From NCBI GenBank assembly GCA_017525225.1, contig JAFXTB010000021.1:1-33090 (forward strand): a stretch of 33,090 bases of DNA, given 5' to 3'. The translations under genes and the position numbers were made by a program. The stretch is from Kiritimatiellia bacterium. GTDB lineage: Bacteria; Verrucomicrobiota; Kiritimatiellia; RFP12; UBA1067. Positions 11,219 through 32,049 of the stretch are shown one piece after another. The first letter of the stretch is position 1. The number at the start of each line of letters is the position of its first letter. The notes beneath the pieces are model-generated. The model saw only the letters and a list, made by a program, of their open reading frames with translations. It had not been told where the DNA came from and did not search any database.

Positions 11219-13939
11219 CTATCGTCCCGAGCGCGGATTGCGCAGGTGGTAAAGGAACCCATCCTCCGCGCCGAGAAGCACGTCCGCCACGCCGTCGCCG
11301 TCAAAATCGCAGGCGCATGGCGAGGTGGAATGCCATTCGAGCCTGGACCCCGAGATGTCGCCCATCTTGCGGAAACTCCAGGTGCCGCCGGCGGATGCGG
11401 TCTGCCGCCAGAGCACGGCGTTACCGCCCACGCGGGCGCTGTTCATCACGAGGTCGAGCCTGCCGTCGCCGTCCCAGTCTAGGAGGCAGATTTTTCGCCT
11501 TCCGGCGTTGCCCGCCGTGGCACGGCCGTTTCCGCTCCATCCCGATACACCCATCGGCTTGCCGGTGTCGGCATTCAGGAACGGACGGCTCGGCGACTTG
11601 AGCGCAAGCGTCCCATCCGCGCGGCGGAACCGCTCGAAGAAGGCGAGATAGCCTTCCGTGTCCACCATGATGAGATCCATCAACCCATCGCCGTTCATGT
11701 CGTGCATCACGGGCGTCGTACGCCACTGTGTCACGATCTCCTTCGCGTTGGGCGTCTTCGAAGCCTGGAACCAGCCCCATCCGAGCTCCGGCTGCGCGCC
11801 TTCCCATTCGACCTCCACGCCTTCAGGTGCGCCGAGCTTCGGCTGCCTGCGCGTGCCGATGTTACGGATGAGCAGCGGCTTGCCCCAGATGGAATTCATC
11901 ATGATGTCGGGCAGGCCGTCGCCGTCCCAGTCGGCCACGGAGAGGCACGTGTACCCCCAGCAGGACTCGCACGGCCCCTGGATGGAGCCGTTGTGGCCGG
12001 CCTGGATGCGCATCGGCCTGTTCTGGAATATCGGCCAGTGGCCCGGCGGCTGCGGCAGGGGCAGCACTGCCGGCATTTCGCAGTCGAGCAGCTTCGGCTC
12101 CTCCCACTTGGGCTCGGCCACGCCAGGACCGGAGAGGTTCTCCACGAAGGCGATGTATCCGGCGGAGTTGCCGACGATTATGTCCTGGTCGCCGTCACCG
12201 TCCCAATCCACCACCCACGGCGTGGCGAGCACGCCGAAATGCACGAAATCGCGTTCACATCTGAGGTAGGTGGGCTGGTCGAACACCGGCATGCCGCCGG
12301 ACATTTTCCCCGTGTTGCGGTAGAAGCCGATGCGGCCATCCTCCTCGCCAGCAAGGAAGTCGAGCCGTCCGTCGCGGTCCCAGTCTATCGCGAACGGGGA
12401 GGTGATGCAGAGATCCGCGTGGAGGCGCACCCCGTCCGATCCCCGCAGGATTCTGCCCGAAGTGTACACGGGGCTGGTACGCGTGCCGATGTTCTCGAAG
12501 TAGGTGTAGTCATCCATGAAGTCGCCGGTGATGATGTCGAGGTCGCCGTCGCCGTCCCAGTCCTCAAGCATAGGGGCGGCGTTGCCGAACACCTCCACAG
12601 GCTGACCGTTCTCCATCCTGAGGCGGAGGGGCTCATCCCACTTCTCGGAGCCACGCTCCCCGCCGGCGTTGCGCACCACGTACACGAGGCCGTGGATCGG
12701 GCCGTTGGTCCAGTCGCCGGCGGGCGTGAAGGCGTTATGCCAGCCATACTGCCGCCAGTCGCCCACACCGATTATGATGTCGTCGCGACCGTCGCCATCG
12801 AAATCCTTGAGCCGCCAGCGGTTGGCCCGTATCTTGCAGTCGTGCACATTCACCGGCAGCCCCTCGAAATTCCTGAAGAGCGAGGGGTTGTTCACGTAGT
12901 CGTAGTTGACGGAGTTACGCGCGACGACCGCCGTGGAACCGTCCGCCAGGAAACTCAGCACGCCGCCATGTAGATGACCGTTGCGGATGCCCGTCGCGAA
13001 ATGCGTGGGGGCGCCGGGCGTGCCCGGCGGCGTATCGTTCCTGAAGTACCACGTGCCGCCTCGCGGCGTGGGCGAGCCAGCCGCAAGGTAGATGTCAAGA
13101 TCGCCGTCGCGATCCATGTCGGCGGGGGTGGCGTTGGAGCAGAGCCCGCCTTTCATGAACGCCGTGCCGGGCGTGTTGTACCGGAGCAGGTTGAAGCGGG
13201 GCTTTTCCTCCGGCAGCTGCGGAAGGCCTGCCGGCAAGCCGCCGCCGCAAAGGAACTCCACGGGGGCGAGCGCACGGTCGCTCACGCGCAGCGACGCGGC
13301 CGTGAACCTCATGTCCTGGCTGCGAGTGCGGCCGCCGAAGAGGAGCCGTGAACGGCACACCGGCGCGGACGAGCCGTGCGCGTCCTGGTTCGTTATGGCA
13401 GACACCATCTGCCCGTCGAGGTAGAACCGCCACAGGCCGCGCCCCTTCTCGCCGCCGCCGTTACGGTCGTACACGAGCGCATAGTGGTGCCAGTGCCGCG
13501 CCACGGCACGGCCGTCAAACCTGTCGGCGAACATCGTCTTGTCCGGCACGCAGCGGCTTGCGAACAACTCGAAGTCCGTCTCGCCGGCCTTGCGGCTGCG
13601 CCATGTGAAGAGCCAGCCGCCGCCGTCGTCCTGGTCCTTGGTGCCGAAGAGGATGAACCACTGCCCGGGTTCAGGCGCCTCGGCAGGGGCGAACACGCCT
13701 TCGACGGTCCACGCCGAATTGGTTATATCCACATGACCGCGCAGGGTGTCGCAGGAATACGATCCGTTCTTGTTGCGCACAAGCCGATGGCTGCCCGCAA
13801 GGCGCTTCGGTTTCCCATCCACGTCGAACGTCCATTCCGCCACCGTGCCCGCGCACAGCGTGGCTGCGGCCATTGAGACGCCTGCGGCCAGGGCGATACG
13901 CCTCAGAACGCTCTTTGATCTGTCGATGTCTCTGTACAT
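11219..13939 (-). CDS. Secreted LamG/FG-GAP (VCBS) repeat protein
   Basis: The 906-aa exported protein has a signal peptide (basic start, RRIALAAGVSMAAATLCAG, cleavage near residue 30). A concanavalin-A/LamG-like domain follows (about 35-245; WTVEGVFAP, HHYALVYDRNG, WRFYLDGQMV). The rest is a beta-propeller built from FG-GAP/VCBS units. Nine Asp-rich calcium-binding loops are visible, among them DMDRDGDLD, DFDGDGRDD, DWDGDGDLD and DWDGDGLPD. Such proteins bind carbohydrates or other ligands at the cell surface; no catalytic motif is recognised. ATG 13939 is chosen because the signal peptide follows and AAGGACAAGGA lies upstream; the longer open frame to 14158 crosses the promoter. It is the first gene of a unit with the SSS symporter. 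Confidence 0.88.
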   Translation of the reverse strand: MYRDIDRSKSVLRRIALAAGVSMAAATLCAGTVAEWTFDVDGKPKRLAGSHRLVRNKNGSYSCDTLRGHVDITNSAWTVEGVFAPAEAPEPGQWFILFGTKDQDDGGGWLFTWRSRKAGETDFELFASRCVPDKTMFADRFDGRAVARHWHHYALVYDRNGGGEKGRGLWRFYLDGQMVSAITNQDAHGSSAPVCRSRLLFGGRTRSQDMRFTAASLRVSDRALAPVEFLCGGGLPAGLPQLPEEKPRFNLLRYNTPGTAFMKGGLCSNATPADMDRDGDLDIYLAAGSPTPRGGTWYFRNDTPPGTPGAPTHFATGIRNGHLHGGVLSFLADGSTAVVARNSVNYDYVNNPSLFRNFEGLPVNVHDCKIRANRWRLKDFDGDGRDDIIIGVGDWRQYGWHNAFTPAGDWTNGPIHGLVYVVRNAGGERGSEKWDEPLRLRMENGQPVEVFGNAAPMLEDWDGDGDLDIITGDFMDDYTYFENIGTRTSPVYTSGRILRGSDGVRLHADLCITSPFAIDWDRDGRLDFLAGEEDGRIGFYRNTGKMSGGMPVFDQPTYLRCERDFVHFGVLATPWVVDWDGDGDQDIIVGNSAGYIAFVENLSGPGVAEPKWEEPKLLDCEMPAVLPLPQPPGHWPIFQNRPMRIQAGHNGSIQGPCESCWGYTCLSVADWDGDGLPDIMMNSIWGKPLLIRNIGTRRQPKLGAPEGVEVEWEGAQPELGWGWFQASKTPNAKEIVTQWRTTPVMHDMNGDGLMDLIMVDTEGYLAFFERFRRADGTLALKSPSRPFLNADTGKPMGVSGWSGNGRATAGNAGRRKICLLDWDGDGRLDLVMNSARVGGNAVLWRQTASAGGTWSFRKMGDISGSRLEWHSTSPCACDFDGDGVADVLLGAEDGFLYHLRNPRSGR

Positions 13940-13988
13940 GCTGGGTCCATCCTTGTCCTTGAGACTGCTTATTTCAAGAACTGCATGG

Positions 13989-13997
13989 ATTATACCA
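13989..13997 (-). promoter_or_regulatory. Extended -10 promoter of the FG-GAP/symporter unit
   Basis: On the reverse strand the sequence is TGGTATAAT with -10 at 13989-13994. A weak -35 (TTACAA) lies 17 bp upstream. The predicted start lies about 45 bp before the ATG. Confidence 0.6.
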
Positions 13998-14175
13998 AAG
14001 TCCCCCCTGTCTTGTAAAAGGAAATTGGCGAGAGAATGGGGTGCCGTTTGCAAGAGTGAACGCAAGTGTCCAAGGTGTACGTGTCCCTCCCGGCGGACAT
14101 GGGGCGGACGCCCCTCCAAAACACCGCATCTAGGGGCATGGCGGCGGAAGGCATACAATATTTTGATTTTTCCCG

Positions 14176-14205
14176 TTGCACACCCCCATGCGTTTATGCT
14201 ATACT
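14176..14205 (+). promoter_or_regulatory. nrdD promoter
   Basis: TTGCAC (14176-14181), an 18-bp spacer and TATACT (14200-14205), with TGC directly before the -10, lie about 57 bp before the nrdD ATG. Confidence 0.6.
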
Positions 14206-14261
14206 TGCCCGCGTCACCAAAAACAGCTTAACCTCCAAAAAGAGAAAAGGACCTCAAGGCA

Positions 14262-16538
14262 ATGAACATCATCAAGCGCGACGGCTCGCAGGCCGTGTTC
14301 GATTCAGGGAAAATCGCAAACGCCATCCGCAAGGCCAACGCCACGGTGGACGATGCGGACAAGCTTACAGAGGCGCGCATCCTGCGCATCGCTTCCCAGA
14401 TCGAACAGTTCGCCGCCGCGCATGACCGTGCGCTCAACGTCGAAGAAGTGCAGGATCTTGTCGAGACGAAGATACAGGAGGCCGGCGCCCATGCGGTCGC
14501 GAAGAAGTACATCACATATCGCTTCATACAGTCCCTCAAGCGCCAGAACAACACCACGGACGGCGAGATCCTCACGCTCATCAACTGCACGAACGAGGAG
14601 GCCCAGCAGGAGAACGCCAACAAGAACCCTCGCATCAACTCGGTTCAGCGCGACTACATGGCCGGGGCCGTGTCGAAGGACGTCACGAAGCGCCTGCTGC
14701 TGCCGGCGGACATCGTGGCGGCGCACGAGGCGGGCCTGATCCATTTCCATGACATGGACTATTACGCCCAGCGCATGCACAACTGCGATCTCGTGAACCT
14801 CGAGGACATGCTGCAGAACGGAACTGTCATCAGCGGCACGACGATCGACCGGCCGCATTCCTTCTCCACCGCATGCAACATCGCCACGCAGATCATCGCG
14901 CAGGTGGCGTCCAACCAGTATGGCGGGCAGTCGATCTCGCTGACGCACCTCGCGCCGTTCGTACAGGTGAGCCGCGAGAAGATCACGAAGGAGGTGGACG
15001 AGGAGCTGGGGCTCGTGGGCGCCAGCATCTCCGCCGAGAAGAAATCGGAAATCATCGAGAAGCGCGTCAGGGACGAGATCGTTCGCGGCGTGCAGACGAT
15101 CCAGTACCAGGTGGTGACGCTCATGACCACCAACGGCCAGGCGCCATTCATCACGGTTTACATGTACCTCAACGAGGCGCGCGACGAGCAGGAGAAGAAG
15201 GATCTCGCCGTCATCATCGAGGAGATGCTGAAGCAGCGCATCCTGGGCGTGAAGAACGAGGTCGGCGTGTACGTGACGCCCGCGTTTCCCAAGCTCATCT
15301 ACGTGCTGGAGGAGGACAACGTCAAGGAAGGTATGCCCTACTTCTACCTCACGGAGCTCGCGGCCAGGTGCACCGCCAAGCGCATGGTGCCGGACTACAT
15401 CAGCGAGAAGATGATGCTCGAGCTCAAGGGCGACGTCTACACCTGCATGGGCTGCCGCAGCTTCCTGACGCCCGACCGCTTCACCGACGCCGGAATCGGC
15501 AACATCTCCAACGCCGGGAACTACGTGCCCGGCAAGCACCGCTACTACGGCCGCTTCAACCAGGGCGTAGTGACCGTGAACCTGGTCGACATCGCGCTCT
15601 CGGCCGTCCGTGCTGCCGGCGACGGTTCGTCCGAGGACATGCGCATGGCGAAGTTCTGGGAGATCTTCGACGAGCGCATGCAGCTCTGCCACCGTGCGCT
15701 CTGCTGCCGCCACGAGCGCCTCAAGGGAACCCTCTCCGACGCCGCACCCATCCTCTGGCAGTACGGCGCGCTGGCGCGCCTCCAGAAGGGCGAGAAGATC
15801 GACCGCCTGCTCTACGACGGCTACTCCACCATTTCGCTCGGCTACGCCGGGCTCTGGGAGTGCGTCTACGCGCTCACAGGCAAGAAGCTCACAGAGTTCG
15901 AGGGCGAGACGCTCGGCCTCGACATCATGAAGAAGCTCAACGAGTACACCGGCAAGTGGAAGAAGGAGTCCAACATCGACTTCTCGCTCTACGGCACTCC
16001 GCTGGAGTCCACCACCTACCGCTTTGCGCAGTGCCTGCAGCGGCGCTTCGGCATCGTCAAGGGCGTCACCGACCGCAGCTACATCACGAACTCATACCAT
16101 GTGCACGTGACCGAGTCGATAGACGCGTTCGCGAAGCTCGCCCTGGAGGCGAAGTTCCAGCAGCTCTCCCCCGGCGGCGCCATCTCCTACGTGGAGGTGC
16201 CGAACATGCAGGACAACATCCCGGCGGTGATCTCCATAATGCAGTTCATCTACGACCACATCATGTACGCCGAGCTGAACACCAAGAGCGACTACTGCCA
16301 GGTGTGCGGCTTCGACGGCGAGATCGAGATCGTCAAGGACGAGAACGGCAAGCTCATCTGGAAGTGCCCCAACTGCGGCAATACGGATCAGAACAAGATG
16401 AACGTGGCGCGCCGTACCTGCGGCTACATCGGCTCCCAGTACTGGAACCAGGGCCGTACGCAGGAGATCAAGGAGCGCGTGCTGCACGTTTCGGAACACC
16501 TGCACGAAAGCTGCGGCTGCGGCCGTGACTGCGCCTGA
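14262..16538 (+). CDS. nrdD: Anaerobic ribonucleoside-triphosphate reductase (class III)
   Basis: This 758-aa glycyl-radical enzyme reduces NTPs to dNTPs under anoxia, using formate as reductant in the family. An N-terminal ATP-cone (about 1-95; IIKRDGSQAVFDSGKIANAI) gives allosteric control. The barrel carries LVNLEDMLQNG, the ITHL-like SISLTHLAPF region and YTCMGCRSFLTP. The C-terminal zinc site is complete (Cys679, Cys682, Cys702, Cys705), and the radical glycine is Gly721 in RRTCGYIGSQYW. The C-terminal CGCGRDC tail is Cys-rich. The ATG is followed by the conserved ATP-cone start and preceded by AAAGGA about 12 nt away. Its TGA overlaps the nrdG ATG by one base (TGATG), so enzyme and activase are coupled. 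It indicates an anaerobic lifestyle. Confidence 0.97.
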   Translation: MNIIKRDGSQAVFDSGKIANAIRKANATVDDADKLTEARILRIASQIEQFAAAHDRALNVEEVQDLVETKIQEAGAHAVAKKYITYRFIQSLKRQNNTTDGEILTLINCTNEEAQQENANKNPRINSVQRDYMAGAVSKDVTKRLLLPADIVAAHEAGLIHFHDMDYYAQRMHNCDLVNLEDMLQNGTVISGTTIDRPHSFSTACNIATQIIAQVASNQYGGQSISLTHLAPFVQVSREKITKEVDEELGLVGASISAEKKSEIIEKRVRDEIVRGVQTIQYQVVTLMTTNGQAPFITVYMYLNEARDEQEKKDLAVIIEEMLKQRILGVKNEVGVYVTPAFPKLIYVLEEDNVKEGMPYFYLTELAARCTAKRMVPDYISEKMMLELKGDVYTCMGCRSFLTPDRFTDAGIGNISNAGNYVPGKHRYYGRFNQGVVTVNLVDIALSAVRAAGDGSSEDMRMAKFWEIFDERMQLCHRALCCRHERLKGTLSDAAPILWQYGALARLQKGEKIDRLLYDGYSTISLGYAGLWECVYALTGKKLTEFEGETLGLDIMKKLNEYTGKWKKESNIDFSLYGTPLESTTYRFAQCLQRRFGIVKGVTDRSYITNSYHVHVTESIDAFAKLALEAKFQQLSPGGAISYVEVPNMQDNIPAVISIMQFIYDHIMYAELNTKSDYCQVCGFDGEIEIVKDENGKLIWKCPNCGNTDQNKMNVARRTCGYIGSQYWNQGRTQEIKERVLHVSEHLHESCGCGRDCA

Positions 16539-20061: not shown

Positions 20062-23000
20062 TCAGCGGTAGTCGATGGCCACCACGAAATCGTCGAGGGT
20101 GTAGTCGCCGCCCTTGTCCGGGAACGCCACCTCGAAGTTGTTGGACCCCTTCACGAGCAGCCCGGCCGGCAGCTCGTACACATTGAGGCCCTTGTCTGAC
20201 GATGAGCACTTCACGGGCCTTCCGTTCACCTTGAGTCCCAGCGAATCGCCGGCGGAGATGGTCGCAAGCGCCTTTACCGTGATCTTCGGCGGCGTCTTGG
20301 CACGGGCGAAATCGTCGCCCACCGTGATCGTGAAGGCGCACGTCTCGCCCGAGGCATACCTGCGCTTCAGCTTGTCCGGCGTACCGGGGTCGATCTGCGG
20401 CAGGTTGTCGAAGCGGTCGCCGTCCTTGAGCCAGTGATCCGGCCGGTAGCCGCCCATGCCGCGCTGGCGCGCGAAGTACAGCTTGTTCTCGCCCTCGCTT
20501 CTCGCGCCGTCTATCTGGGCGATGTCGTGGAGCGCGTTGCCCTCCAGGTTGAACACATACACGCCATCCGCACCGGCCGCCATCGCCTCGGCGAAGCGCG
20601 CCGCGTAGGCGGCCTTCGTCTCGCGGCCAGGGATGTACGGCTGCTTCCTCGACCTGGCGACACGCTCGATGCGCGATTCGTCGATCGAGGCGTAGAAGCG
20701 GATGCCGTTACGGTGCGCCAGGGCGACCGATTCCTCCCAGGGGTTGAGGTGGAAGTATCCCGCGCCAATCCACACGTCCACCAACCGTTCCGCGAACCAG
20801 CGCTCGAGATCGATGCCGCAGGCGCGGTCGTATCCGACCGAATCCGGGGCGCGCATGCACACGACCACGGGCCGTCCACGGCGGCGGCCGATCTCCTCGG
20901 ATATGGCGCGCAGGTCGCGCATGAGGCCTGTCATCATCTCAAGCTCCTCCGTGGACGCCATGCCGCCCTCGGCCACGCTCTTGAAGAGGATGAAATGGCG
21001 GTTGAAGTCGTACTCTATCCCGTCCACATCGTAGTTCTCGAGGAACTGCCGCACGAACATGCGCATGCGCTCGCGCACCTCAGGATGCGTGAAGTCCACG
21101 CAGCTCCAGCTCACGCCGGCGCAGAAGAGATGGCCATTCTTCTTGCGGTCGATGCTGCCCATGAGATATTCCGGATGCGCCTTCTTGAACGGCGGAAAGA
21201 GCGCGCTGTAGCCCTTCTCGATTGTCGATGCGGCGTCATGCTGGTCGTTGACGCGGATCGAGACGAACGCGCCAAGCCCGTTGCGGTGGCAGTAATCCAC
21301 CGCCATCTCGAGCGCATCCGTGCCGAGCGCAAAGAAGTCCGCCGCCGCGTTGCGGGCGTCGTCACGGCCGTGGAAGGTGGAGGTGACGGTGTTTGTGAGC
21401 GGTTCGCCGGCCCTGTTGCAGATGAAGTGCCCGAAACCCGCGCTCTGCGGACAGTACGACACCGTCGCGATGCGCGTTCCAAGCGCGTACCTGAGCCGCT
21501 GATCCTCGAATGCCTTCACGCTCACCGGCAGGTTCGTGGGCCAGTAGAGTATGTCGCAGCCGTCGGTGTTGTAGACGAACGTGCGCATCTTGTCCAGCGC
21601 GGCCGTGCGCTTGGCCTCCCAGGCCTCGTCCCTGGCGGGACCGTACGCCGGCTTGGCGCGATAGAGCGCGCGTACAGCATCCACCGCGAGCTTTGGACGA
21701 CGGTAGAGGTCGTAGAGACCGCCAGTGTTGACGCCGTAGGAACGCGCGCGGTGCGAACCGGTGCGCGTGTAGGTCTTGCAGTCGGTGAACTGCCAGATGG
21801 CAACGCCGGCTATGTCGAGGTTGGCGAACAACTCCTCGAGCATCGTCCGCGTGTACTCGGCCTGGAAGTCCTCGGAATACTGCGCCCGGCCGCGTGGATC
21901 GTGCACGCCCCAGTCCGCCTTTACGCCAGTCTCGCTCACGATTATCGGGCGGTCATCCCTGTGCATGTCGCGGAAGTACTTCACGATGCGGCGGTGGCAG
22001 CGGCGGATGTTCTCGCGCATCTCCTCCGGCGAGCCGTTCTGCATCGTGTCGTTGTACCAGCAGGGATAGGTGTTGTAGGCTATGACGTCCGTCTTGTAGT
22101 GCGAGGCGTCGTGCGCCGTGTCGTTGCACGCGAACGTCACCAGATGGCCGGTATCTTCGGCGTGCACGGCATCCACGAGCCTATCCACCAGCTTCCGGCA
22201 TGCCGGCTGCGCCGAGCGCGGCTCGTTGAGGAAGCCCGTTATTATGATGCACGGATGGTTGATCGACCTGCGCGCCATCATGCGCGTCTGCCGTTCCTGC
22301 AGATCGCAGAACTCGGGGTCGTTCAGCTGCTTCGGACCGTTGCCCCAGCCAAGCGACTCCTCCCACACCATCACACCAAGCTCGTCGCAGAGGTCAAGGA
22401 ACGCCGCGCACTGCGGATAGTGACTGCCACGGATGAAGTTGCCGCCCATGTCCTTGAGGTTCTTGATGTCCTCGAGCATTATCGCCGCAGGCACGGACAC
22501 GCCGAATTCATAGTGCGATTCGTGCCTGTTGACGCCCTTGAGGTACACGGGGCGCCCGTTCAGCGTGATGCGACCCTTTTCCGTTCCCACCTGCCGCACG
22601 CCGAAGCGCGTCGTGACCGTCTTGGCGCGCGAGCCGGGCGAGGAAGGCGCCGTCACGGAGACATTGTGGAGATTCGGCTCCTCGGGCGTCCACAACCTGA
22701 AGCCTGGCACCTCGATCTTTGCGCGCCGGCCCTTGAACGCCACCTTCTTCGCCGCCGCGCCGTCGAACGAGACATCCGCCTCGAAATCCGCCGCCGCGCC
22801 GGCACCGGCGAACTCCGCCTCCAGCTCGACGAGACCAATACGATAGTCGCGCGTGCGCACGACCACGCGCCTAAGCTCGTTTTTGTCCGACACCGTCTCG
22901 AGGGCGATGCCGTGGTGGAAGCCGCCGTACGGGTAGAAGTCGTAGAAGTCCCAGAAGAGCTTCACCTTCGAGTTGTCCACGATGGAGTCCACGGCCGCCT

Positions 23001-23427
23001 CGATGGTATGGCGGCCGGCCTTGAGCGGACCGGCACGGAACTCCACGCAGCTCCAAGGGAGCACGCTCGTGCCGAGGTCGCGTCCGTCAAGCCAGAACCT
23101 CGCCCTGAGGCCGAAGCCATCCACCACGAGGAACGCATCGGCCGCGTTCTCGTCAAGCTCGAACGTGCGCCTGTACAGGCCCGTGCCGTGCTGGTTGAAG
23201 TAGCGCGACATCGCGTTCCAGCATCCAGGAACAGTCATCTTGTCGTTGGTCTTGAAGCCGCCCTTGCCGACTTCCTCCAGCGACCTCCCCTTCTCGAAAC
23301 GGAAATCCCAGAGACCGTCCAGCGATATCCTCTCCGAACCTGTCGCCGCCAATGACACCATGGCTGCAAGCGCCACCAACGTCGACTTGGGAAACATTCT
23401 TTTCGATATGATCATCATAGCATCCAC
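20062..23427 (-). CDS. GH2 glycosidase fused to a second TIM-barrel-like module, secreted
   Basis: The 1121-aa exported enzyme has a signal peptide (FPKSTLVALAAMVSLAATG). The GH2 part (about 30-600) has a jelly-roll (LWDFRF, GTGLYRRTFEL), an Ig-like domain and a barrel. GVNRHESHYEFG, the acid/base Glu402 in FLNEPRS and the nucleophile Glu499 in IVSETGVKADWG fit beta-galactosidase/beta-glucuronidase-type enzymes. A second module (about 612-980) has DILYWPTNLPVSV, VDFTHPEVRERMRMF and DVDGIEYDFNRH, like GHL-type (family 10-like) putative glycosidases of the PVC group. A beta-sandwich-like end (LGLKVNGRPVK, PAGLLVKGSNNFEVAF) follows. GTG 23427 has AAGGAAA directly upstream; ATG 23418 is also possible. 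It is the last gene of the glycan operon, 11 bp after the GH123-like gene. Confidence 0.9.
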   Translation of the reverse strand: MDAMMIISKRMFPKSTLVALAAMVSLAATGSERISLDGLWDFRFEKGRSLEEVGKGGFKTNDKMTVPGCWNAMSRYFNQHGTGLYRRTFELDENAADAFLVVDGFGLRARFWLDGRDLGTSVLPWSCVEFRAGPLKAGRHTIEAAVDSIVDNSKVKLFWDFYDFYPYGGFHHGIALETVSDKNELRRVVVRTRDYRIGLVELEAEFAGAGAAADFEADVSFDGAAAKKVAFKGRRAKIEVPGFRLWTPEEPNLHNVSVTAPSSPGSRAKTVTTRFGVRQVGTEKGRITLNGRPVYLKGVNRHESHYEFGVSVPAAIMLEDIKNLKDMGGNFIRGSHYPQCAAFLDLCDELGVMVWEESLGWGNGPKQLNDPEFCDLQERQTRMMARRSINHPCIIITGFLNEPRSAQPACRKLVDRLVDAVHAEDTGHLVTFACNDTAHDASHYKTDVIAYNTYPCWYNDTMQNGSPEEMRENIRRCHRRIVKYFRDMHRDDRPIIVSETGVKADWGVHDPRGRAQYSEDFQAEYTRTMLEELFANLDIAGVAIWQFTDCKTYTRTGSHRARSYGVNTGGLYDLYRRPKLAVDAVRALYRAKPAYGPARDEAWEAKRTAALDKMRTFVYNTDGCDILYWPTNLPVSVKAFEDQRLRYALGTRIATVSYCPQSAGFGHFICNRAGEPLTNTVTSTFHGRDDARNAAADFFALGTDALEMAVDYCHRNGLGAFVSIRVNDQHDAASTIEKGYSALFPPFKKAHPEYLMGSIDRKKNGHLFCAGVSWSCVDFTHPEVRERMRMFVRQFLENYDVDGIEYDFNRHFILFKSVAEGGMASTEELEMMTGLMRDLRAISEEIGRRRGRPVVVCMRAPDSVGYDRACGIDLERWFAERLVDVWIGAGYFHLNPWEESVALAHRNGIRFYASIDESRIERVARSRKQPYIPGRETKAAYAARFAEAMAAGADGVYVFNLEGNALHDIAQIDGARSEGENKLYFARQRGMGGYRPDHWLKDGDRFDNLPQIDPGTPDKLKRRYASGETCAFTITVGDDFARAKTPPKITVKALATISAGDSLGLKVNGRPVKCSSSDKGLNVYELPAGLLVKGSNNFEVAFPDKGGDYTLDDFVVAIDYR

Positions 23428-23438
23428 TTTCCTTTTTT

Positions 23439-25895
23439 TTACAGAAGTTCAAGCAGCTTCTCTAGCGCCGCGTCCATCGCCGGCATGGTGCCGGCATCGG
23501 CTGCCGTCTTGACTATCTCGTCAATCTGCGCAAGTTTTGCCGCATCGCCTGCGAGCTTGCGCCTGAGGTAGACGACAAGCCGCCCCTCTTGATAGGCCAT
23601 GTCCGCTCCCAGCTGGCGCCGGCTCAAGGCGATAAGGTCGTAGTCCCAGTCAACGATGCAGCTACCGTAGCTGTAGTCCAGTCCGGCGAAGTAGCCGCTT
23701 TCATCGATGTGCCAGTAGGAATCGACGGGGTCGAACCCGTCCCTGAGATTCTGCCATACGCCCCGGCGATAGGCGGCGGCTGGCGACTCGTATGTCGTGA
23801 TATGGTATGTGCCCACATGCCGCGTCCCTGAAGCGCGGAGGATCGCAATCGCCCGATGTGTCAGTTTGGGACGATAGGGCACCACAAGGTCGAACATCTT
23901 CGCAAACTCCGGGGCCGCCTTGGCGAATTCATCCGTGGCCAGGAAATCAGGCAGCGGATTCCACATGGTCAGATTCGCCGGGTTCTCGGCCTTGATGAGC
24001 CGTCCCATCCAGCGGCATCTCGACAGCGACGACTTGTACTCGGCGTCCTCCAGCTTGCCGTTAGCCTCGTCCACGGGATACCAGATGATGCGTTCACGCC
24101 GGATGCCGTATTTCTCCATGACATGGCGCGTGAACGACGCGACGAGAAGGCGCATGCCCTTTTCGTATTCGGGCGAGGCGAAGGGAACGCGCCGTCCTGC
24201 GGCATCGCGCAGCCCGCGCCAAAGGTAATGTTCGCGCTCCACGGCGATGAACGGACGAATGTACATCTTTTCCACGGGCAGTCCGCCCGCGATCCAGAGA
24301 TCGATCCACCGGTCGATATCCACATAGTCCGGCGCCACCCATTCGCCACGACCGTTCATGTGCGGATACAGGTCGTCGAATCGCGAGATGAACACATCGT
24401 TGTAGCCTCGCTGCACCAGCGTGCGGATGCAGTTGGCAAGCGGCCGATGCCCGTTTCTGCACGAGGCGTGCAGATGCGTGTAGGCGGGTCTGAGGACCTC
24501 GACGGTGTCGAGGTCGTCATCGGTGATAGTAACGTCGATAGGGATGCGCAGACCGGGAAATCCGCTCGTGACGCTTTCAAACCCCAGCCAGAGCCGATGC
24601 GTTCCGGCCGCAAGGCCGTGGGTGTCGAGCTCCAGATAGACCGGCATCACCTTCCCGGAGCCAATTTCGACAAGCGACTTCATCGGTAGCTCCACGGTCG
24701 CATCCGCGTTGGGCCTGCCGTTCTTCAGCTGCCCCCACACGGCCCGCCGCAGCGTGAAGGCGTCGGCGATGGTCGGCTTCGGCCTCTCCTCGCCGCGGGT
24801 GCGCGAATAGAAGCGTTTTGGATCGGCAAGGACCTTGAGATTTCCGACATAGTCCGCATCTGTGAGGTTCGCGATCGTGAACGCCTTGATTCGCAGGCTG
24901 TTGCGCGGCACCTTCAGAACGATCTGCTCCATCGGCTTTGTGCCGATCTGCGGATATGGCCCATTTCCCCACACGTCGCCGGAATCGTACACGAGAAGCG
25001 GTCTGCCCTCGAGCGAAATCGCTACAAGCGCGCGATCAAGCTCACCGAACATCGCGTCGAGCGCGGCGTAGGCGCCAGGCTCGGCGGCATGCGCCTCGAT
25101 GGCCTTCTTCACGGCCCCCGCCACCTTGCGGACCTCGGCGGCGGCCGACGGCGACACCGCCGCCACATCGCGGCAACGGCCCGCATAGCCTGAAAAACGT
25201 CTGCGCAGATAATCGTCCGCCTTGCCGATGATCAGGGTGCCGAATACCCACCTGGACGTATCAAACGCGCCGCCGTTCTTCGCCCATGCGCTGTGGCGTC
25301 CGCACGTCTGACCCATCCTCTGGAAGTTCACGCCAAACGCATCACCAGGCTCGGGAATCTTGTTGAATGCGTCCTTGAGCGGTATTTCCATGTGTACCCT
25401 GAAGCCGGTTGGAGTGTTCGTCGTTGTGATCTTCGAAGCCGACGACCAGCCCATGTTTCTAACCCCGGCGCGGAATCCGTGAGCCGAATAGGGCCCCCCG
25501 CAATTGGCGGCGAACACCGACACCTCGTCGGCATCGAGGCGCGGACGCACCAGCATCTCGACACGATCTCCGTTCCAGGGATCGCTTGATTTCCGGGGCG
25601 TCATTCCAGGGGGCACGGGACAGTCGAAGTCCACGATCAGCTTTTCACCGCAGATCTGCACTTCCGCCGAGGCGGCATTCTGCACGAACTTGTCGTCGGC
25701 CTTGTCCATCTGGCCAAAGACCCTCGAGTTCATCACTTCCGAGACCTTGAACCGACCGGTGGACGCGCGGCCGTCCGTACCCAGCACCATGGTTTCGGAG
25801 GCTCGGTCCGGCTCGATGAAGCGATATTCCGGAACCTTGACCGCACCGATTGCCATGCCGGCAATCGCAACCATCGACATGAATGTCAGTCTCAT
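23439..25895 (-). CDS. Secreted CBM9-like/GH123-like protein (818 aa)
   Basis: A signal peptide (MRLTFMSMVAIAGMAIGA) is followed by a CBM9-like beta-sandwich (about 45-225; GDRVEMLVRPRLDADEV, GDAFGVNFQRMG). A linker helix region leads to a C-terminal barrel with ERIIWYPVDEANGKLED. Asp609-Glu610 matches the Asp-Glu pair of GH123 beta-N-acetylgalactosaminidases, where the Asp orients the N-acetyl group and the Glu is the acid/base. The family label (GH123 or related DUF4091) is from memory of motifs. ATG 25895 has a GAGGGTGG-like site just upstream. It lies between the SGNH esterase (23 bp) and the GH2 gene (11 bp), and is a clear paralogue of the 1066-aa gene two positions earlier in the operon. 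Confidence 0.85.
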   Translation of the reverse strand: MRLTFMSMVAIAGMAIGAVKVPEYRFIEPDRASETMVLGTDGRASTGRFKVSEVMNSRVFGQMDKADDKFVQNAASAEVQICGEKLIVDFDCPVPPGMTPRKSSDPWNGDRVEMLVRPRLDADEVSVFAANCGGPYSAHGFRAGVRNMGWSSASKITTTNTPTGFRVHMEIPLKDAFNKIPEPGDAFGVNFQRMGQTCGRHSAWAKNGGAFDTSRWVFGTLIIGKADDYLRRRFSGYAGRCRDVAAVSPSAAAEVRKVAGAVKKAIEAHAAEPGAYAALDAMFGELDRALVAISLEGRPLLVYDSGDVWGNGPYPQIGTKPMEQIVLKVPRNSLRIKAFTIANLTDADYVGNLKVLADPKRFYSRTRGEERPKPTIADAFTLRRAVWGQLKNGRPNADATVELPMKSLVEIGSGKVMPVYLELDTHGLAAGTHRLWLGFESVTSGFPGLRIPIDVTITDDDLDTVEVLRPAYTHLHASCRNGHRPLANCIRTLVQRGYNDVFISRFDDLYPHMNGRGEWVAPDYVDIDRWIDLWIAGGLPVEKMYIRPFIAVEREHYLWRGLRDAAGRRVPFASPEYEKGMRLLVASFTRHVMEKYGIRRERIIWYPVDEANGKLEDAEYKSSLSRCRWMGRLIKAENPANLTMWNPLPDFLATDEFAKAAPEFAKMFDLVVPYRPKLTHRAIAILRASGTRHVGTYHITTYESPAAAYRRGVWQNLRDGFDPVDSYWHIDESGYFAGLDYSYGSCIVDWDYDLIALSRRQLGADMAYQEGRLVVYLRRKLAGDAAKLAQIDEIVKTAADAGTMPAMDAALEKLLELL

Positions 25896-25918: not shown

Positions 25919-27052
25919 TCATTCCTTGACGGATTCGTCTTTCGCATCGAGCGCAAGAGCCTTCGCAATGATCGGGGCGAGCGCACGGGCGATGTTCGCC
26001 ATGCCCTTGTCGCTTGCATGCACTCCGTCAACCGTATCCTCGCCGTCAGGATCGTACACCTTGTCCCAATCCAGCCAGTAAAGCCGATCATATCCTTCGG
26101 CGGAAAGCTTCTCGTAGGCCGTGCGCGCTAGACGCGCCCTTTCGTTGGGCGCGCGACCGCGCGCATCGTACTTGTCGGTTACGACGATAGGCACGCCCGG
26201 ACGTTTCGCACGAAGGATGCGGATGAATGCCTCGTGCCGTTGTCCGCCGGTGTTCCACAGCGTGTCGATCACATAGCAGCTGGCGTCGATGGCCGCCAGA
26301 TGATCGGCCATCTCCAGTTCCATGTTGCCGGAGCCGGAGAAGCCGAGGTTCACGACAGGCACGTCAAGGTCCCGTCCGATGATGTTGACGAAGCCCATGC
26401 CTGGCCGCGAAGCGCATCCTCCCTGCGTAATGGAAGTTCCGTAGAAGACAACAGGCTTGACCACGCCGCTTTTCCTCGGTGGCAGGGGTTTTACCTCCGC
26501 ACCTTCATCGACGCCCAGCAGGAAATCCTTGATGCCATTGTAGTTCGGCAGATTGACGATGCACGCTTCGCCGGGTTTCCAGTCGACCTCGAACGCGCAA
26601 CCATCCTGCATGTTCTTCGGGCATCCGGTCGCCACGTACCGCCAGCGGCGTGTCTTCGCGTCAAACCTGTATACATCGATGCCGCTCTGTCCCTGACGGG
26701 ACAGGTTTGAGCTTTCCAGCAGATGGCAGATCGGGTGCCAGAGGAAGCGCAGTTTGGTGGAATCCGTGGAAAACCTGAACTGCATACCGGCCGAGAATCG
26801 TTTCAGCCAGTGTACACCCCGGTTGACATTGGTGGTGACGCTGTCGGTCAACCGGTCGTAATAGCGGGAAACATCCGCGTAGGCCTTTCCCTCGAGCGGA
26901 AGAGCCCGGCCGTCGATCCACTTCACGCCGTTGCTGACGACCATAAATTCGGTCGCCATGCGCCGGTCGATATCCTCGAGCCGTTCGGCGGCAGCCGCAT
27001 CCGCCGGCATCAGTACTGCAACGAAACCGAGAACAATGCCTAGTCTTTTCAT
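25919..27052 (-). CDS. Secreted SGNH/GDSL hydrolase
   Basis: The 377-aa exported esterase begins with MKRLGIVLGFVAVLMPADAAAA as signal peptide. A beta-sandwich N-terminal domain (about 40-195; WIDGRALPLEGKAY, FRFSTDSTKLRF) is typical of SGNH hydrolases with a jelly-roll front. The SGNH blocks are present: Ser207 in FYGTSITQGG, GFSGSGNME (Gly and Asn of the oxyanion hole), and Asp342-x-x-His345 in VDGVHASDKG. Deacetylation or other de-esterification of a glycan fits the neighbours but is inferred. The start lacks a good Shine-Dalgarno sequence and lies 10 bp after the upstream stop, which suggests coupling; the near-repeat CCATGAAAAG occurs twice around it. It is placed between two GH123-like paralogues. 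Confidence 0.9.
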   Translation of the reverse strand: MKRLGIVLGFVAVLMPADAAAAERLEDIDRRMATEFMVVSNGVKWIDGRALPLEGKAYADVSRYYDRLTDSVTTNVNRGVHWLKRFSAGMQFRFSTDSTKLRFLWHPICHLLESSNLSRQGQSGIDVYRFDAKTRRWRYVATGCPKNMQDGCAFEVDWKPGEACIVNLPNYNGIKDFLLGVDEGAEVKPLPPRKSGVVKPVVFYGTSITQGGCASRPGMGFVNIIGRDLDVPVVNLGFSGSGNMELEMADHLAAIDASCYVIDTLWNTGGQRHEAFIRILRAKRPGVPIVVTDKYDARGRAPNERARLARTAYEKLSAEGYDRLYWLDWDKVYDPDGEDTVDGVHASDKGMANIARALAPIIAKALALDAKDESVKE

Positions 27053-27062
27053 GGTTGACTTT

Positions 27063-30000
27063 TCATGGTTTGAGGGAAAGAAGCTTCTCGCGGGCGATAT
27101 CCATCGCCTCCATGGAGCCCGTGTCGGCGGCTTCCTTGACGATCGCCTCGACCTTGCCGAGCGTTGCTGGGTCGTCCTTGTATTTGCGACGCATGAAGAG
27201 AATCACCTTCGCGTCCTCCGTGGCCATGTCCGCCGCAAGCTGGCGGCGCGAGGCGAGCAGCGAATCGAGATCCCAGTCGACATAGAGCGTGCAGTAGTCC
27301 GCATAGCGGCCGGGCGCGCTGCAGTCGGACGAATCGAACGGGTTTCCTGCGGATTCCGTCATGTGCCAGTAGGTGTTGATCTCGCGGAATCCGTCACGCA
27401 GGTTCTTCCATACGGCACCGCGGTGTACGGTGGGAGGCGTCTCCTTGTCGATGATGTGGTAAGTCCACACCTCCTTCAGGTTCACGGATCTCACAAGCTG
27501 CTTCTTCGCCTCCGTGACCGAGGGGCGGTAGAGCTCTATCACATCGTATACCTCCGCGAGCTTCGGCATCGCCTTGTTGATCTTGTCGGACTCCAGAAAG
27601 TTCGGCAGCGGGTCGGTCATCGTGAGATTTGCCGGATCCTCGGCCTTTATCTCCTTGGCGGCGCGGTATGCGCGCGCAACCGTATCCTTGTATGACGCAT
27701 CGTCGATGTCGCCGTTCGGCTCGTCGACCGGATACCAGTAGATGCGGCTCTTGTCTACGCCGTACTTCCCCTTCAGGTGAGCCGCAACGTCGCGTACCAT
27801 GAAGCGTATGGCCTCGCCCCATTTCTCGGTCGCGAAGGGAACGATCTTCCCGTCCTTGTCGGTGGGCGCGTGGGTCCATTCGCGATGGAGCTTCTTGTCG
27901 GCCTCCATGCCCAGGTATATCCAGAGCTTCATCTTCTCCTTCGGCAGCCCCGCCGCGAGAAAGGCATCTATGTGGCGGTCAAGGACGTCGTACTCCGTGA
28001 CGCGCCACGCCCCCGATTTGTCCATCTTCGGATAGAGGTTTGCCTCCAGGTCGGACACATATATGACGTTGTATCCTCTCTCCACCAGAAAGCGCACCAT
28101 CCCCGGACAAGCGCTCTGCCCCTTGCGGAACGAGTCACCGATGGCGTCGTATCCCGCCTTGTCCACGGCAATCGTCGAAAGGTCGTCGTCCGTCACCGTC
28201 ACCTCAACCGAGACCTTGACATCCGGATAGCCGGGCGTCGCATTCCGCATCCAGAGCTGCGCGTAATGCCTTCCGGCGGGAAGGCCGTGCGTGTCGAGCT
28301 CGAGATAGACAGGCACCACCTCCCCCGGCCCCAGCCTCAGCAGATTCTTCATCTGAAGCTCCATCACGGGATCGTAGAGCTTTCGTCCGTCGCGGCTCGC
28401 GATATGGAAGCCCTGGCGCAGCGTGAAGTGCCGCCCCAGACCGTTCATCACAGCCGGACGCTGCTTCGAGAACCCACCGCGGCAGCGGTCGATGATCTTC
28501 ATCTGCCCCGTCAAATACTCGTCGCACAGATTCGCCGCCGCGAACGCGTACACCGCGCGCGAATTGCGCGCCGCAAGGATGCGGATCGTCTCAAGCGGCT
28601 TCGAGTTTTCGTCTGGATCGAGCAGATTGCTCCATGCGTTCGCCGGACGAAACAGCAGCAGCGGACGTCCGCCTAGCGCGATGTTAAGGAGCGAACGGTC
28701 GAGGCGGGCGAACATCGCCTCCAACGAAGCGAACGACGCGGTGTCTGCGCCATGCGCCCGGACGGCTTCCCTGACGGGCGCGAACACCCGCCCGACAGCG
28801 GCAAGCGCGTCGGCACGGTCGACGGCGACCTTCCTCCCACGCGCCTCGGCAGTCTCGAGCTTGCGCGCGAAATACGCCGCCGCACCGCCATAGACCGCCG
28901 TACCGAAAGCGAATTCGTTGTTGAACTCGCCGCCGGCGACGCTCCACACGGAACCCCCGCTGCACGTGGCGCCGTGTCGTCTGAAGTTTATTCCGAAAGT
29001 GTCGCCCGGCTTGAGCGCGGAGGCAAACACCTCGTCGAAAGGAATGTCGAGCGAGACGGCGAAACCGCCGGGGATGTCGTCTACCGCGATTTTCACCTTC
29101 GACTTCCATCCCTGCACCTTCGTCCCTGCCGCCCAGAACTTCTCGCCCGTTCCGATTCCGCCGGAGTTGATTGCGTATACGTAGAACGCAGGATGCTTCG
29201 CATCGGGACGAAGGAAAAGTTCCACGAAGTCACCGCTCCATATCTGCGACTTCGACCGTACGGGCGCCATGCCGTCGGGTACGGGGCAGAGAATCTTCAC
29301 CTTGATGCTCTCCGTGCCGAGCGAGACGGACGCCGTCGAGGATGCGTCCAGGAACTTCTGGTCGGCGCTCTTCATCGCACCGAACGCCCCTTCCTCGTGG
29401 TCAAGCACGCGGAAGCGCCCCGTCGCCGCCTTGCCATCCGCATCGAGAACGAGCACGTCCGCCCCGCCCGCGACCGACTTGAACTCCGGCAGGACCAGCT
29501 TGGAATAGTCCGCCGCCGGACGCACGGCCTCCGGTGCGCCAAGGGCCACATCGTAGACGGCCACATCGTCGATCGCGCCATCGAGATAGTTGCTTCGCAC
29601 TCCCTCATCGGCACGGCCTACGTACATGACAGGGAACCAACCTTTTGCGGGCGGATCTGTCGACAGTTCCTTGAGCGACGGCGTACCGTCCTTCTGCAGT
29701 ACGGCAGCACCGTCCAGCCATGCCGTCAGCCGCCCTCCCCTTGCAACCGCGATGCGCAGGGAGTGGTAGGCACCCTCCTTTATCTTGAGCGGCTCTGACG
29801 CCGTCTTGAAATCAACTGCCGGACGCCTGCCACCCTTGCCCGCCGGACGTTCCACCGCCACACGAAGCCGTCCGTCGCCAGTGAGATCCACATTGCATAT
29901 TCCACGCCCCTCGCCATTCCAGGAATAGAGCCAGAGCCCGCGGACCGTCTTGCCATCAAGAGGCGACGCGAGCTTGAACTTCATGTCGAGCGTGAACTCC

Positions 30001-30263
30001 TCGTACGGCAGAGGTAGCGCGGTCACGGAACCTATGCGCCCGCTGTTCGCGACCAGCCCGGCGGAAGCGTCCACGCCCTGCCCAGCGGCAAGCCATCCTC
30101 CCATGCCGCGCTTCTTCTCGGCAGTACCGAAATCGGCCGCGACATTCGGGTGCCACCATTCAGTACGGTCGAAATTCCACTGGTGCCGCGGCTTGACATT
30201 CGCGCCTGCTGCTCCAAGCGCGATTGACACCACCGCCAGCGCAATCATCATTCTTGATGTCAT
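27063..30263 (-). CDS. Secreted LamG-CBM9-GH123-like protein (1066 aa)
   Basis: After a signal peptide (MTSRMMIALAVVSIALGAAGA) come a LamG/concanavalin-A-like domain (about 25-250; FTLDMKFKLASPLDG, YHSLRIAVARGG, LDGAIDDVAVYDVAL) and a CBM9-like domain (SGDFVELFLRPDAKHP, GDTFGINFRRHG). A C-terminal barrel carries SRIYWYPVDEPNG (Asp847-Glu848), the GH123-type catalytic pair. Long stretches match the 818-aa paralogue, for example AEDPANLTM, TYHI and VWKNLRDGF. ATG 30263 has AAGGA about 8 nt upstream. The frame continues to 30452, but that part overlaps the previous gene. It lies 13 bp after the beta-helix gene and is second in the operon. The true substrate is unknown. Confidence 0.88.
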   Translation of the reverse strand: MTSRMMIALAVVSIALGAAGANVKPRHQWNFDRTEWWHPNVAADFGTAEKKRGMGGWLAAGQGVDASAGLVANSGRIGSVTALPLPYEEFTLDMKFKLASPLDGKTVRGLWLYSWNGEGRGICNVDLTGDGRLRVAVERPAGKGGRRPAVDFKTASEPLKIKEGAYHSLRIAVARGGRLTAWLDGAAVLQKDGTPSLKELSTDPPAKGWFPVMYVGRADEGVRSNYLDGAIDDVAVYDVALGAPEAVRPAADYSKLVLPEFKSVAGGADVLVLDADGKAATGRFRVLDHEEGAFGAMKSADQKFLDASSTASVSLGTESIKVKILCPVPDGMAPVRSKSQIWSGDFVELFLRPDAKHPAFYVYAINSGGIGTGEKFWAAGTKVQGWKSKVKIAVDDIPGGFAVSLDIPFDEVFASALKPGDTFGINFRRHGATCSGGSVWSVAGGEFNNEFAFGTAVYGGAAAYFARKLETAEARGRKVAVDRADALAAVGRVFAPVREAVRAHGADTASFASLEAMFARLDRSLLNIALGGRPLLLFRPANAWSNLLDPDENSKPLETIRILAARNSRAVYAFAAANLCDEYLTGQMKIIDRCRGGFSKQRPAVMNGLGRHFTLRQGFHIASRDGRKLYDPVMELQMKNLLRLGPGEVVPVYLELDTHGLPAGRHYAQLWMRNATPGYPDVKVSVEVTVTDDDLSTIAVDKAGYDAIGDSFRKGQSACPGMVRFLVERGYNVIYVSDLEANLYPKMDKSGAWRVTEYDVLDRHIDAFLAAGLPKEKMKLWIYLGMEADKKLHREWTHAPTDKDGKIVPFATEKWGEAIRFMVRDVAAHLKGKYGVDKSRIYWYPVDEPNGDIDDASYKDTVARAYRAAKEIKAEDPANLTMTDPLPNFLESDKINKAMPKLAEVYDVIELYRPSVTEAKKQLVRSVNLKEVWTYHIIDKETPPTVHRGAVWKNLRDGFREINTYWHMTESAGNPFDSSDCSAPGRYADYCTLYVDWDLDSLLASRRQLAADMATEDAKVILFMRRKYKDDPATLGKVEAIVKEAADTGSMEAMDIAREKLLSLKP

Positions 30264-30276
30264 AGCACAATCCTTG

Positions 30277-32049
30277 TCATTTGAACGTAAGCATGGTACC
30301 GGGCGTGCCGAGCGTAAGATGTTGCTTGTACATGCGGATCTCCGGGACGGCCGCGCCGACAGCCCCCTGCAGGACGCCTGCGTAGTAGAGCGACCAGGAA
30401 GAGAGATTCGGCGGGGTCGTGGTTGACTGCGCCGTGAACGGCAACAGCGCAAGTCCGGTTGTTGGAGTGAAGGAAAGAAGATCGAGCGAACCGTTCGCCG
30501 CCGGAGCGAAATTGTCTACGGCCACGGTTGCGGACGAATCGAGCGTCAGGCTGTCGACGGTGAACGGTCTGTCTCCACCAAGCGCGAAGGACGTATTTTT
30601 GCCCATCTCGAGGGAGCGGATATGGACCGGTCCGGAGGCGTTCTCCGCGAATGTGACCGCACCGGTGGTGACGGTGAGCCCGGCCATGTCGGTGGCGTTC
30701 GACATGACGAGCGAACCAGTACCGTACTTGATGCAGACGACGTTCGTTCCGATGTCGTGGACTTTGCAATCGGAGCCGTCCAGACCAACATACAGCTTCC
30801 CGAGGTGTTCCGTATTTGTACTACTGTAGATCACCCCGTCTATCACGGCCTTCTTCGCCTTAAGCGTATTGCCGCAGATGTCCAGAGTGATTCCCGGTCC
30901 TACATACAGATCGTGATTACCTTTAAAGAGGTTGTTGGCAATCAACCCATCACGCAAACCAGGAGCTTTATAGGTTCCTGAACCTATCAGCCCGCCAACC
31001 AGCCAAAAACGGTACGATCCTTCGATGCGAATAGCCCCAGTGTTGTTAAATTTAATGGAATTGTCTCCAACGTTGTATGATACGATCAAGGAAGATATGA
31101 TGCCGGGCGATCCTTGTGGGCACCAGTTTCCGCTACCTTTGACGATGAAATCGCCATCTCCCTCTATGTAGATGCTTGCGCCACCATTGGGCGTGTTGAA
31201 TACGCCATTCGACCAGGATCGCTTGTCGATAACGACAGGATTCCCGTTTGTGGCAGTGAGATAGAAGATGGAGCCGGCCGTCGAATTCCAATGGGGCACA
31301 GTGTTTCTGACAGACGCGCCCGCGCCGGAATTCCACAATCCCTGGCGTATGCTGCCGCCATTGAAGAGAATCCGAGTATCGGGGCGTCCCACATGACTCA
31401 CAGATGCGAAATTCATATACGAATCCTCGTCCAGAAGAACGGTATTGCCGATAAAACGGGCACAGCCACTATAGAGAAGGGAGTTGCGATCAAAATTGAA
31501 AATAGAATCGGTTGAACCTGTAGAGGATGTTACCGAAGCCCCCTTCTTGAGATGCATGAACATCTTGGCGGTGGCGGGGAACGGATTTTCAGCGGTGAAA
31601 TTGGAACGATCAGGATCTTCCAATATCTGCATGCCCATGTTCTGCGTGCAACGCAATACGGCATTCGTGCCAAGAATGAGACTGCCAGCACCGCCGTTCA
31701 TGCCGATGGCACATTCCTTATAGTCCGTCTTCCCGCTCGCCCCGTTCACCACCAGCTGCGCATCGTTGCCGATGGAGACCTTCACGTTCTGCACTATGCC
31801 AGATGCCATCACGAATGTTGTGCACGTCACAAGCGCTTCATCCGCGATCTCAAGCTCGCCGTTGCAGAATATCCTGCCGTATGTCTTCTCGCCCTCGATA
31901 CGCTTCGACTCGCCAACTTCTACGATGAAATCTTCGGCAAGCGCCATGGACGCCATCATCATCGCCGCAAACGCAAGAAACGCACGTAGCCTACACCTTC
32001 CATTTGCCGCATTGTTTTGCACTTTTGACGCGTTCTTCAGTATTGACAT
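30277..32049 (-). CDS. Secreted beta-helix/autotransporter-passenger-like protein
   Basis: The 590-aa protein has a long signal peptide (basic n-region, FLAFAAMMMASMALA, cleavage before EDF). The body consists of short beta-strand repeats rich in Gly, Asn, Ser and Thr with aliphatic residues (for example GSLILGTNAVLRC, KLYVGLDGSDCKVHDIGTN, TGSLVMSNATDMAGLTV). This is the pattern of right-handed beta-helix or passenger-type surface proteins. No C-terminal beta-barrel, PEP-CTERM or LPXTG-like signal is seen; it ends in TPGTMLTFK. ATG 32049 has AAGGAG 8 nt upstream. It is first in the glycan operon directly after a palindrome-bearing promoter and may be a surface glycan-binding component, which is an inference. 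No catalytic residues are recognised. Confidence 0.85.
   Translation of the reverse strand: MSILKNASKVQNNAANGRCRLRAFLAFAAMMMASMALAEDFIVEVGESKRIEGEKTYGRIFCNGELEIADEALVTCTTFVMASGIVQNVKVSIGNDAQLVVNGASGKTDYKECAIGMNGGAGSLILGTNAVLRCTQNMGMQILEDPDRSNFTAENPFPATAKMFMHLKKGASVTSSTGSTDSIFNFDRNSLLYSGCARFIGNTVLLDEDSYMNFASVSHVGRPDTRILFNGGSIRQGLWNSGAGASVRNTVPHWNSTAGSIFYLTATNGNPVVIDKRSWSNGVFNTPNGGASIYIEGDGDFIVKGSGNWCPQGSPGIISSLIVSYNVGDNSIKFNNTGAIRIEGSYRFWLVGGLIGSGTYKAPGLRDGLIANNLFKGNHDLYVGPGITLDICGNTLKAKKAVIDGVIYSSTNTEHLGKLYVGLDGSDCKVHDIGTNVVCIKYGTGSLVMSNATDMAGLTVTTGAVTFAENASGPVHIRSLEMGKNTSFALGGDRPFTVDSLTLDSSATVAVDNFAPAANGSLDLLSFTPTTGLALLPFTAQSTTTPPNLSSWSLYYAGVLQGAVGAAVPEIRMYKQHLTLGTPGTMLTFK

Follow-up and report, generated by a model that had tools for sequence, protein, structure and literature searches.

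A gene in the window (the whole stretch of 33,090 nucleotides from a Kiritimatiellia bacterium analysed here) encodes a secreted chain in which a GH2 glycosidase is followed by another glycosidase module, which is of a different kind and apparently complete. This pairing had been proposed in a preliminary description of the DNA, and both the fold and the residues now agree with it. The second half is almost certainly a member of a sister group within the GH156 superfamily, with its catalytic machinery intact.

The fused gene and its surroundings

The gene, its parts and its neighbours are laid out as follows.

20062..23427, minus strand: fused GH2/GH156-like gene (P0001), 1121 aa counted from GTG
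23341..23418, minus strand: N-terminal signal peptide MMIISKRMFPKSTLVALAAMVSLAATGS, assigned by eye from the sequence
21652..23340, minus strand: GH2 exo-glycosidase part, residues 30-592 (Pfam GH2; best solved relative 6ncw)
21631..21651, minus strand: junction PAYGPAR, residues 593-599, where the GH2 stop and the module signal peptide known from relatives are both absent
20065..21630, minus strand: GH156-like module, residues 600-1121, barrel plus C-terminal beta domain
20071..20343, minus strand: C-terminal beta domain, residues 1029-1119, from model strands and aligned to EnvSia156
23439..25895, minus strand: gene for an 818-aa orphan protein, 11 bases upstream of the fused gene
25919..27052, minus strand: GxDLY/SGNH esterase of the same gene row (Pfam PF14606/PF14607)
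27063..30452, minus strand: longer paralogue of the 818-aa orphan, with a LamG-like N-terminus

The coordinates first given for the fused gene are correct, and the strand, which had been left unstated, is minus. An ATG at 23418, three codons past the GTG, is the likelier start, and the signal peptide that follows is the only one seen by eye in the whole chain. The gene is the last of four tightly packed minus-strand genes, with upstream gaps of 11, 23 and 10 bases. The two orphan proteins of this row are 39% identical across about 800 aa, and both carry the motif WYPVDEANG/WYPVDEPNG; their shared part has no significant match in Pfam or the PDB and no relative at E 1e-20 among 40 related genomes, and the pair could represent an unknown glycosidase family. 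The closest named relatives are Kiritimatiellae and Lentisphaerae assemblies from the rumen and other herbivore guts.

The second half is related to GH156 sialidases

No Pfam model matches the second half above threshold, and candidate assignments to GHL10, GH31 or GH18 were rejected as weak Pfam/NCBIfam echoes, all under cut-off. A single-sequence search of the PDB matched EnvSia156, an inverting exosialidase of family GH156 (E 7.6e-8), and with a profile built from 14 relatives this match strengthened to E 7.4e-26, the next being alpha-amylases at 7.6e-4. An AlphaFold model of the module based on 78 sequences (pLDDT 94.7, pTM 0.93) gave the same answer in Foldseek, where three EnvSia156 structures rank first (E 3.2e-30, TM 0.73-0.76) and the next match stands at 1.5e-12. 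VIA-align superposes the model on EnvSia156 with Z 32.6 and rmsd 3.0 over 454 residues spanning barrel and beta domain. EnvSia156 is the sole clear solved relative of the module.

The preliminary description had seen an independent TIM-barrel unit of about 370 residues (612-980). The separate barrel is borne out by the confident model, its extent is not: model residues 15-520 align with residues 7-502 of EnvSia156, the beta domain being part of the same fold, and the unit runs from 600 to 1121. That the second half might instead be a non-catalytic accessory domain common in GH2 enzymes, or lack an acidic pocket, was checked by profile, model and residues and did not hold; an accessory domain is ruled out by the fold and the residues.

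In an unrooted tree of the superfamily, EnvSia156 stands with six canonical sequences, of which this genome supplies four, and a branch with an SH-aLRT support of 98 separates them from 84 others that include the module. As the module lies on the other side of this branch from EnvSia156, it belongs to a sister group and is not a plain GH156 member. This group is large, comprises sequences from PVC bacteria, Armatimonadota and Acidobacteriota, and is separate from EnvSia156. The same genome carries about nine other copies of the module along with several canonical GH156-like domains.

Predicted catalytic residues and pocket of the module

In EnvSia156 the catalytic base is Asp14 and the acid His134, and Arg129, Arg202 and Asn346 bind the carboxylate of the sialic acid (PMC6811678). 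The corresponding positions in the window are these.

21562..21564, minus strand: Asp622, predicted catalytic base (EnvSia156 Asp14)
21238..21255, minus strand: R725-V-N-D-Q-H730, with a clamp Arg (Arg129), the Asp132 equivalent and the predicted acid His730 (His134)
20998..21030, minus strand: DVDGIEYDFNR, residues 800-810, an acidic motif followed by clamp Arg810 (Arg202)
20851..20853, minus strand: Arg859 (EnvSia156 Arg246)
20548..20550, minus strand: Asn960, third residue of the carboxylate clamp (Asn346)

The equivalent of Trp164 is also present. Among 103 relatives, with gaps excluded, the base Asp is conserved in 87/88 and the acid His in 95/100, and the clamp residues in 98/100 (first Arg), 101/103 (second Arg) and 101/101 (Asn). 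The motif DVDGIEYDF (800-808), singled out earlier as the module's own acidic motif, is indeed conserved; its Asp807 is invariant, aligns with EnvSia156 Asp199 and lies beside the clamp Arg202/R810. The catalytic pair is to be sought elsewhere, however, namely by homology in D622 and H730.

The surroundings of this machinery differ. In most or all of the group, Gly, Asp, His, Tyr and Phe, respectively, stand where EnvSia156 has Asn15, Tyr135, Phe203, Phe278 and Trp279 in or near its pocket; these changes are read from a sequence alignment of low identity, at positions that adjoin invariant anchors. Neu5Ac itself may therefore not fit. Since the changed positions vary partly among canonical members too, they would bear on specificity. 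Judged by sequence, the module keeps its catalytic machinery in an altered pocket, and it is probably an active relative of the GH156 sialidase.

That it might be a catalytically dead, glycan-binding partner of the GH2 half seems hardly probable at all. Degenerate copies do occur in the family, such as one in the same genome (L010, contig C71, 3994-5763), a divergent module without the Asp, the His and two conserved Arg, which is probably dead or has taken on a new role. The window copy, however, has all the residues that this one has lost, as do nearly all relatives, and the confidence of its model is very high. In a small subgroup from Planctomycetota and Hydrogenedentota (L116, L117 and L120), Asp132 is changed to Asn together with a change of the catalytic His134 to Glu, a possible natural switch of the catalytic acid.

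The GH2 half

The N-terminal half contains the barrel and sandwich domains of GH2 in Pfam (Glyco_hydro_2_C at residues 283-589, E 1.4e-32), and among solved structures it matches best the beta-galacturonidase 6ncw of Eisenbergiella tayi (E 1.9e-59). Three positions matter most.

22222..22224, minus strand: Glu402, GH2 acid/base (NE motif), 34/34 relatives
21931..21933, minus strand: Glu499, GH2 nucleophile, 34/34 relatives
21727..21729 (N567), minus strand: NxK position N567-T-G569, with Asn kept and Lys changed to Gly

Both catalytic glutamates are thus kept, as had been noted at the outset, and R333, H302, H336 and W545 are invariant in the alignment with 34 relatives, with Y458 also kept. 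A GH2 subfamily analysis of 2025 takes the NxK motif of loop 8 to distinguish beta-hexuronidases, allowing for some exceptions (PMC12243196). By this rule the absent Lys points away from a typical hexuronidase, and a typical beta-glucuronidase or beta-galacturonidase is ruled out as far as a rule with exceptions allows; a Gly takes the place of the Lys in close GH2 orthologues too. With Gly in place of the hexuronidase Lys, a first guess at the substrate would be a neutral hexose, most likely beta-galactose. One close orthologue (L138, 5914-8724, 66% identical) is extended at its C-terminus by a domain other than the module, about 330 aa long and with no Pfam match.

The fusion and its distribution

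At the junction (...LYRAKPAYGPARDEAWEAKR...) the end of the GH2 part meets the start of the mature module in frame and with no stop between them. The two parts occur as separate genes in relatives: in a genome of the same genus (G001) the GH2 orthologue (65%) ends at LYTSKPE followed by a stop, and in a different genome (G027) the module (75%) is a gene of its own with a lipoprotein-like signal. Among 162 genomes of the order, this one alone has GH2 and the module in one frame. Long frames at L024, L036 and G154 were considered as further fusions and rejected, since the additional stretches look like non-coding frames. The idea that the fusion arose from a conserved operon was rejected as well: at 14 loci of GH2 orthologues in relatives, neither the module nor the esterase nor the 818-aa protein is a neighbour. 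The fusion is accordingly recent, and no second instance has come up so far.

Its absence from all other genomes of the order, together with the two-gene arrangement in relatives, would also be expected if an assembly error in this metagenome-assembled genome had joined two separate genes. We regard this as very improbable, because the join is in frame, free of stops and placed exactly between the GH2 end and the start of the mature module, whose own signal peptide is absent, and GC3 is similar on both sides (0.84 and 0.88). In a model of the whole chain both halves are confident (pLDDT 93.4), with a pTM of 0.65 and the mutual placement of the two sites not fixed.

Other members of the superfamily are also joined to further domains. 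In the same genome, one protein (L011, contig C27, 6190-10194) combines a NAGLU/GH89-like barrel with a canonical GH156-like domain that matches EnvSia156 at E 8e-54 over nearly its full length, and another (L012, contig C79, 2906-10540; 2545 aa) has a LamG-like domain beside a pair of canonical GH156-like ones, with a BNR_2 (sialidase-like) gene a few genes away at 13369-14562. A module in a metagenome-assembled bacterium (L054, 4894-7587) is fused to a propeller weakly similar to GH33 sialidases, a Lentisphaeria protein of 1487 aa (L063, 3691-8151) contains a tandem pair of GH156-like modules, and the remaining partners include a PD40 propeller (L014) and an SGNH esterase (L006).

Proposed activity and substrate

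The explanation that we prefer, and consider moderately likely, is that the secreted chain joins a GH156-related inverting ulosonidase to an exo-beta-glycosidase and makes sequential cuts at one acidic glycan end. Asp622 would activate a water molecule and His730 would protonate the leaving group, with Arg725, Arg810 and Asn960 gripping a 2-keto sugar acid at the glycan end (sialic acid, Kdn, Kdo, Dha or the like) by its carboxylate. The module would cut first, removing the acidic cap as an inverting exo-glycosidase, and the GH2 half, as a retaining exo-beta-glycosidase, would then remove the uncovered sugar, most likely a neutral hexose such as beta-galactose. We infer this order, the substrate classes and catalysis itself; that both modules act in sequence on one glycan is plausible. 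A more specific form of this explanation takes the module as part of a large sister family of GH156 whose changed pocket accepts a 2-keto acid other than Neu5Ac (e.g. Kdo, Dha, Kdn), the window chain removing this cap and the sugar beneath; to this we give somewhat less than an even chance. Several points speak against the preferred explanation: among solved structures the GH2 half is closest to a beta-galacturonidase, the pocket is changed, a minority of expressed gut GH156 enzymes showed sialidase activity, lyase models in the genome score below cut-off, lyases show no clear enrichment near the module, no NanE was found, the fusion occurs in one genome only, and the whole-chain model does not fix how its two sites are placed.

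The genome offers some context. Directly downstream of a stand-alone paralogue of the module (L015, contig C147) lies a lyase gene that scores best, though below cut-off, with the NCBIfam model for N-acetylneuraminate lyase; the lyase superfamily has eleven matches in the genome, with lyase model scores under their cut-offs, and there is one GlcNAc 2-epimerase. The NanE epimerase family was not found in the genome. Around the module at 79 loci of other genomes, 4 lyases were seen against about 2 expected from the density in this genome, which is not a clear enrichment. The GH33-like fusion, the lyase neighbour of the paralogue and the lyases and epimerase of the genome are hints that favour 2-keto sugar acids; they do not tell sialic acids of a host from the Kdo or Dha of plants.

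One alternative is a plant substrate. The module would by the same mechanism release a plant keto acid, such as the Kdo or Dha of rhamnogalacturonan II, and the GH2 half would take off a neighbouring pectin sugar. The herbivore-gut samples from which the closest named relatives come would fit this, as would the proximity of the GH2 half to beta-galacturonidase and the fixed change, with the clamp kept, of the positions that touch the glycerol side chain of sialic acid in EnvSia156; environmental Planctomycetota GH156 proteins are cited in one paper as likely plant-glycan enzymes (PMC11929135). The GH33-like propeller fusion and the N-acetylneuraminate-lyase-like genes, however, indicate sialic acids at least as well, and we consider action on plant pectin rather unlikely. 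It is improbable that the substrate is instead a terminal uronic acid, bound and cut by the module with its clamp on a C6 carboxylate. A carboxylate clamp alone cannot separate C1 from C6 carboxylates, and the pocket is unlike that of EnvSia156; yet clamp, Asp and His are placed as in EnvSia156, where this arrangement serves a carboxylate (C1) on the anomeric carbon, which speaks against a uronic acid.

Comparison with known enzymes

Very few enzymes of GH156 have been studied well, and sialidase activity was lacking in most of its expressed gut members, 5/19 having shown it (Mann et al. 2022, as cited in PMC10298468). The module represents a separate, widespread group in which the chemistry is kept and the pocket rebuilt, and it allows a direct test of what else the His/Asp machinery cuts, with the exo-beta-glycosidase, GH89-like, GH33-like and esterase partners of the superfamily as clues to the substrate. 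The natural fusion with GH2 could serve as a ready-made two-step tool in glycan analysis. The statement that no standard named enzyme has this pairing stands, in that no GH156-GH2 fusion, nor any GH156 in connection with Kiritimatiellota, is described in the literature searched (the sequences of Mann et al. 2022 were not compared); it needs amending in that the second half falls in a known superfamily.

The module has its entire fold in common with EnvSia156 (PDB 6rzd, 6s00, 6s04), and the catalytic Asp and His, the Arg/Arg/Asn clamp, Asp132, Arg246 and Trp164 are all matched. It differs in its low identity (about 17-19%), in five positions in or near the pocket that are changed in a fixed way, and in being fused to GH2. 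The canonical GH156-like proteins of the same genome (L011, L012, L013) belong to the same superfamily but group with EnvSia156; L011 is a two-enzyme chain like that of the window, but with a NAGLU/GH89-like partner. Stand-alone modules in relatives (L019, 75% identical; L020, 66%) are the same enzyme by sequence and differ in being separate secreted proteins or lipoproteins with no GH2. The GH2 half shares its domains and all catalytic residues with the Eisenbergiella tayi enzyme 6ncw and with GH2 beta-glucuronidases, from which it is set apart, as not a typical hexuronidase, by the Gly in place of the NxK Lys. Both superfamilies, GH2 and GH156, are known, and their pairing in one chain is a new combination of known kinds.
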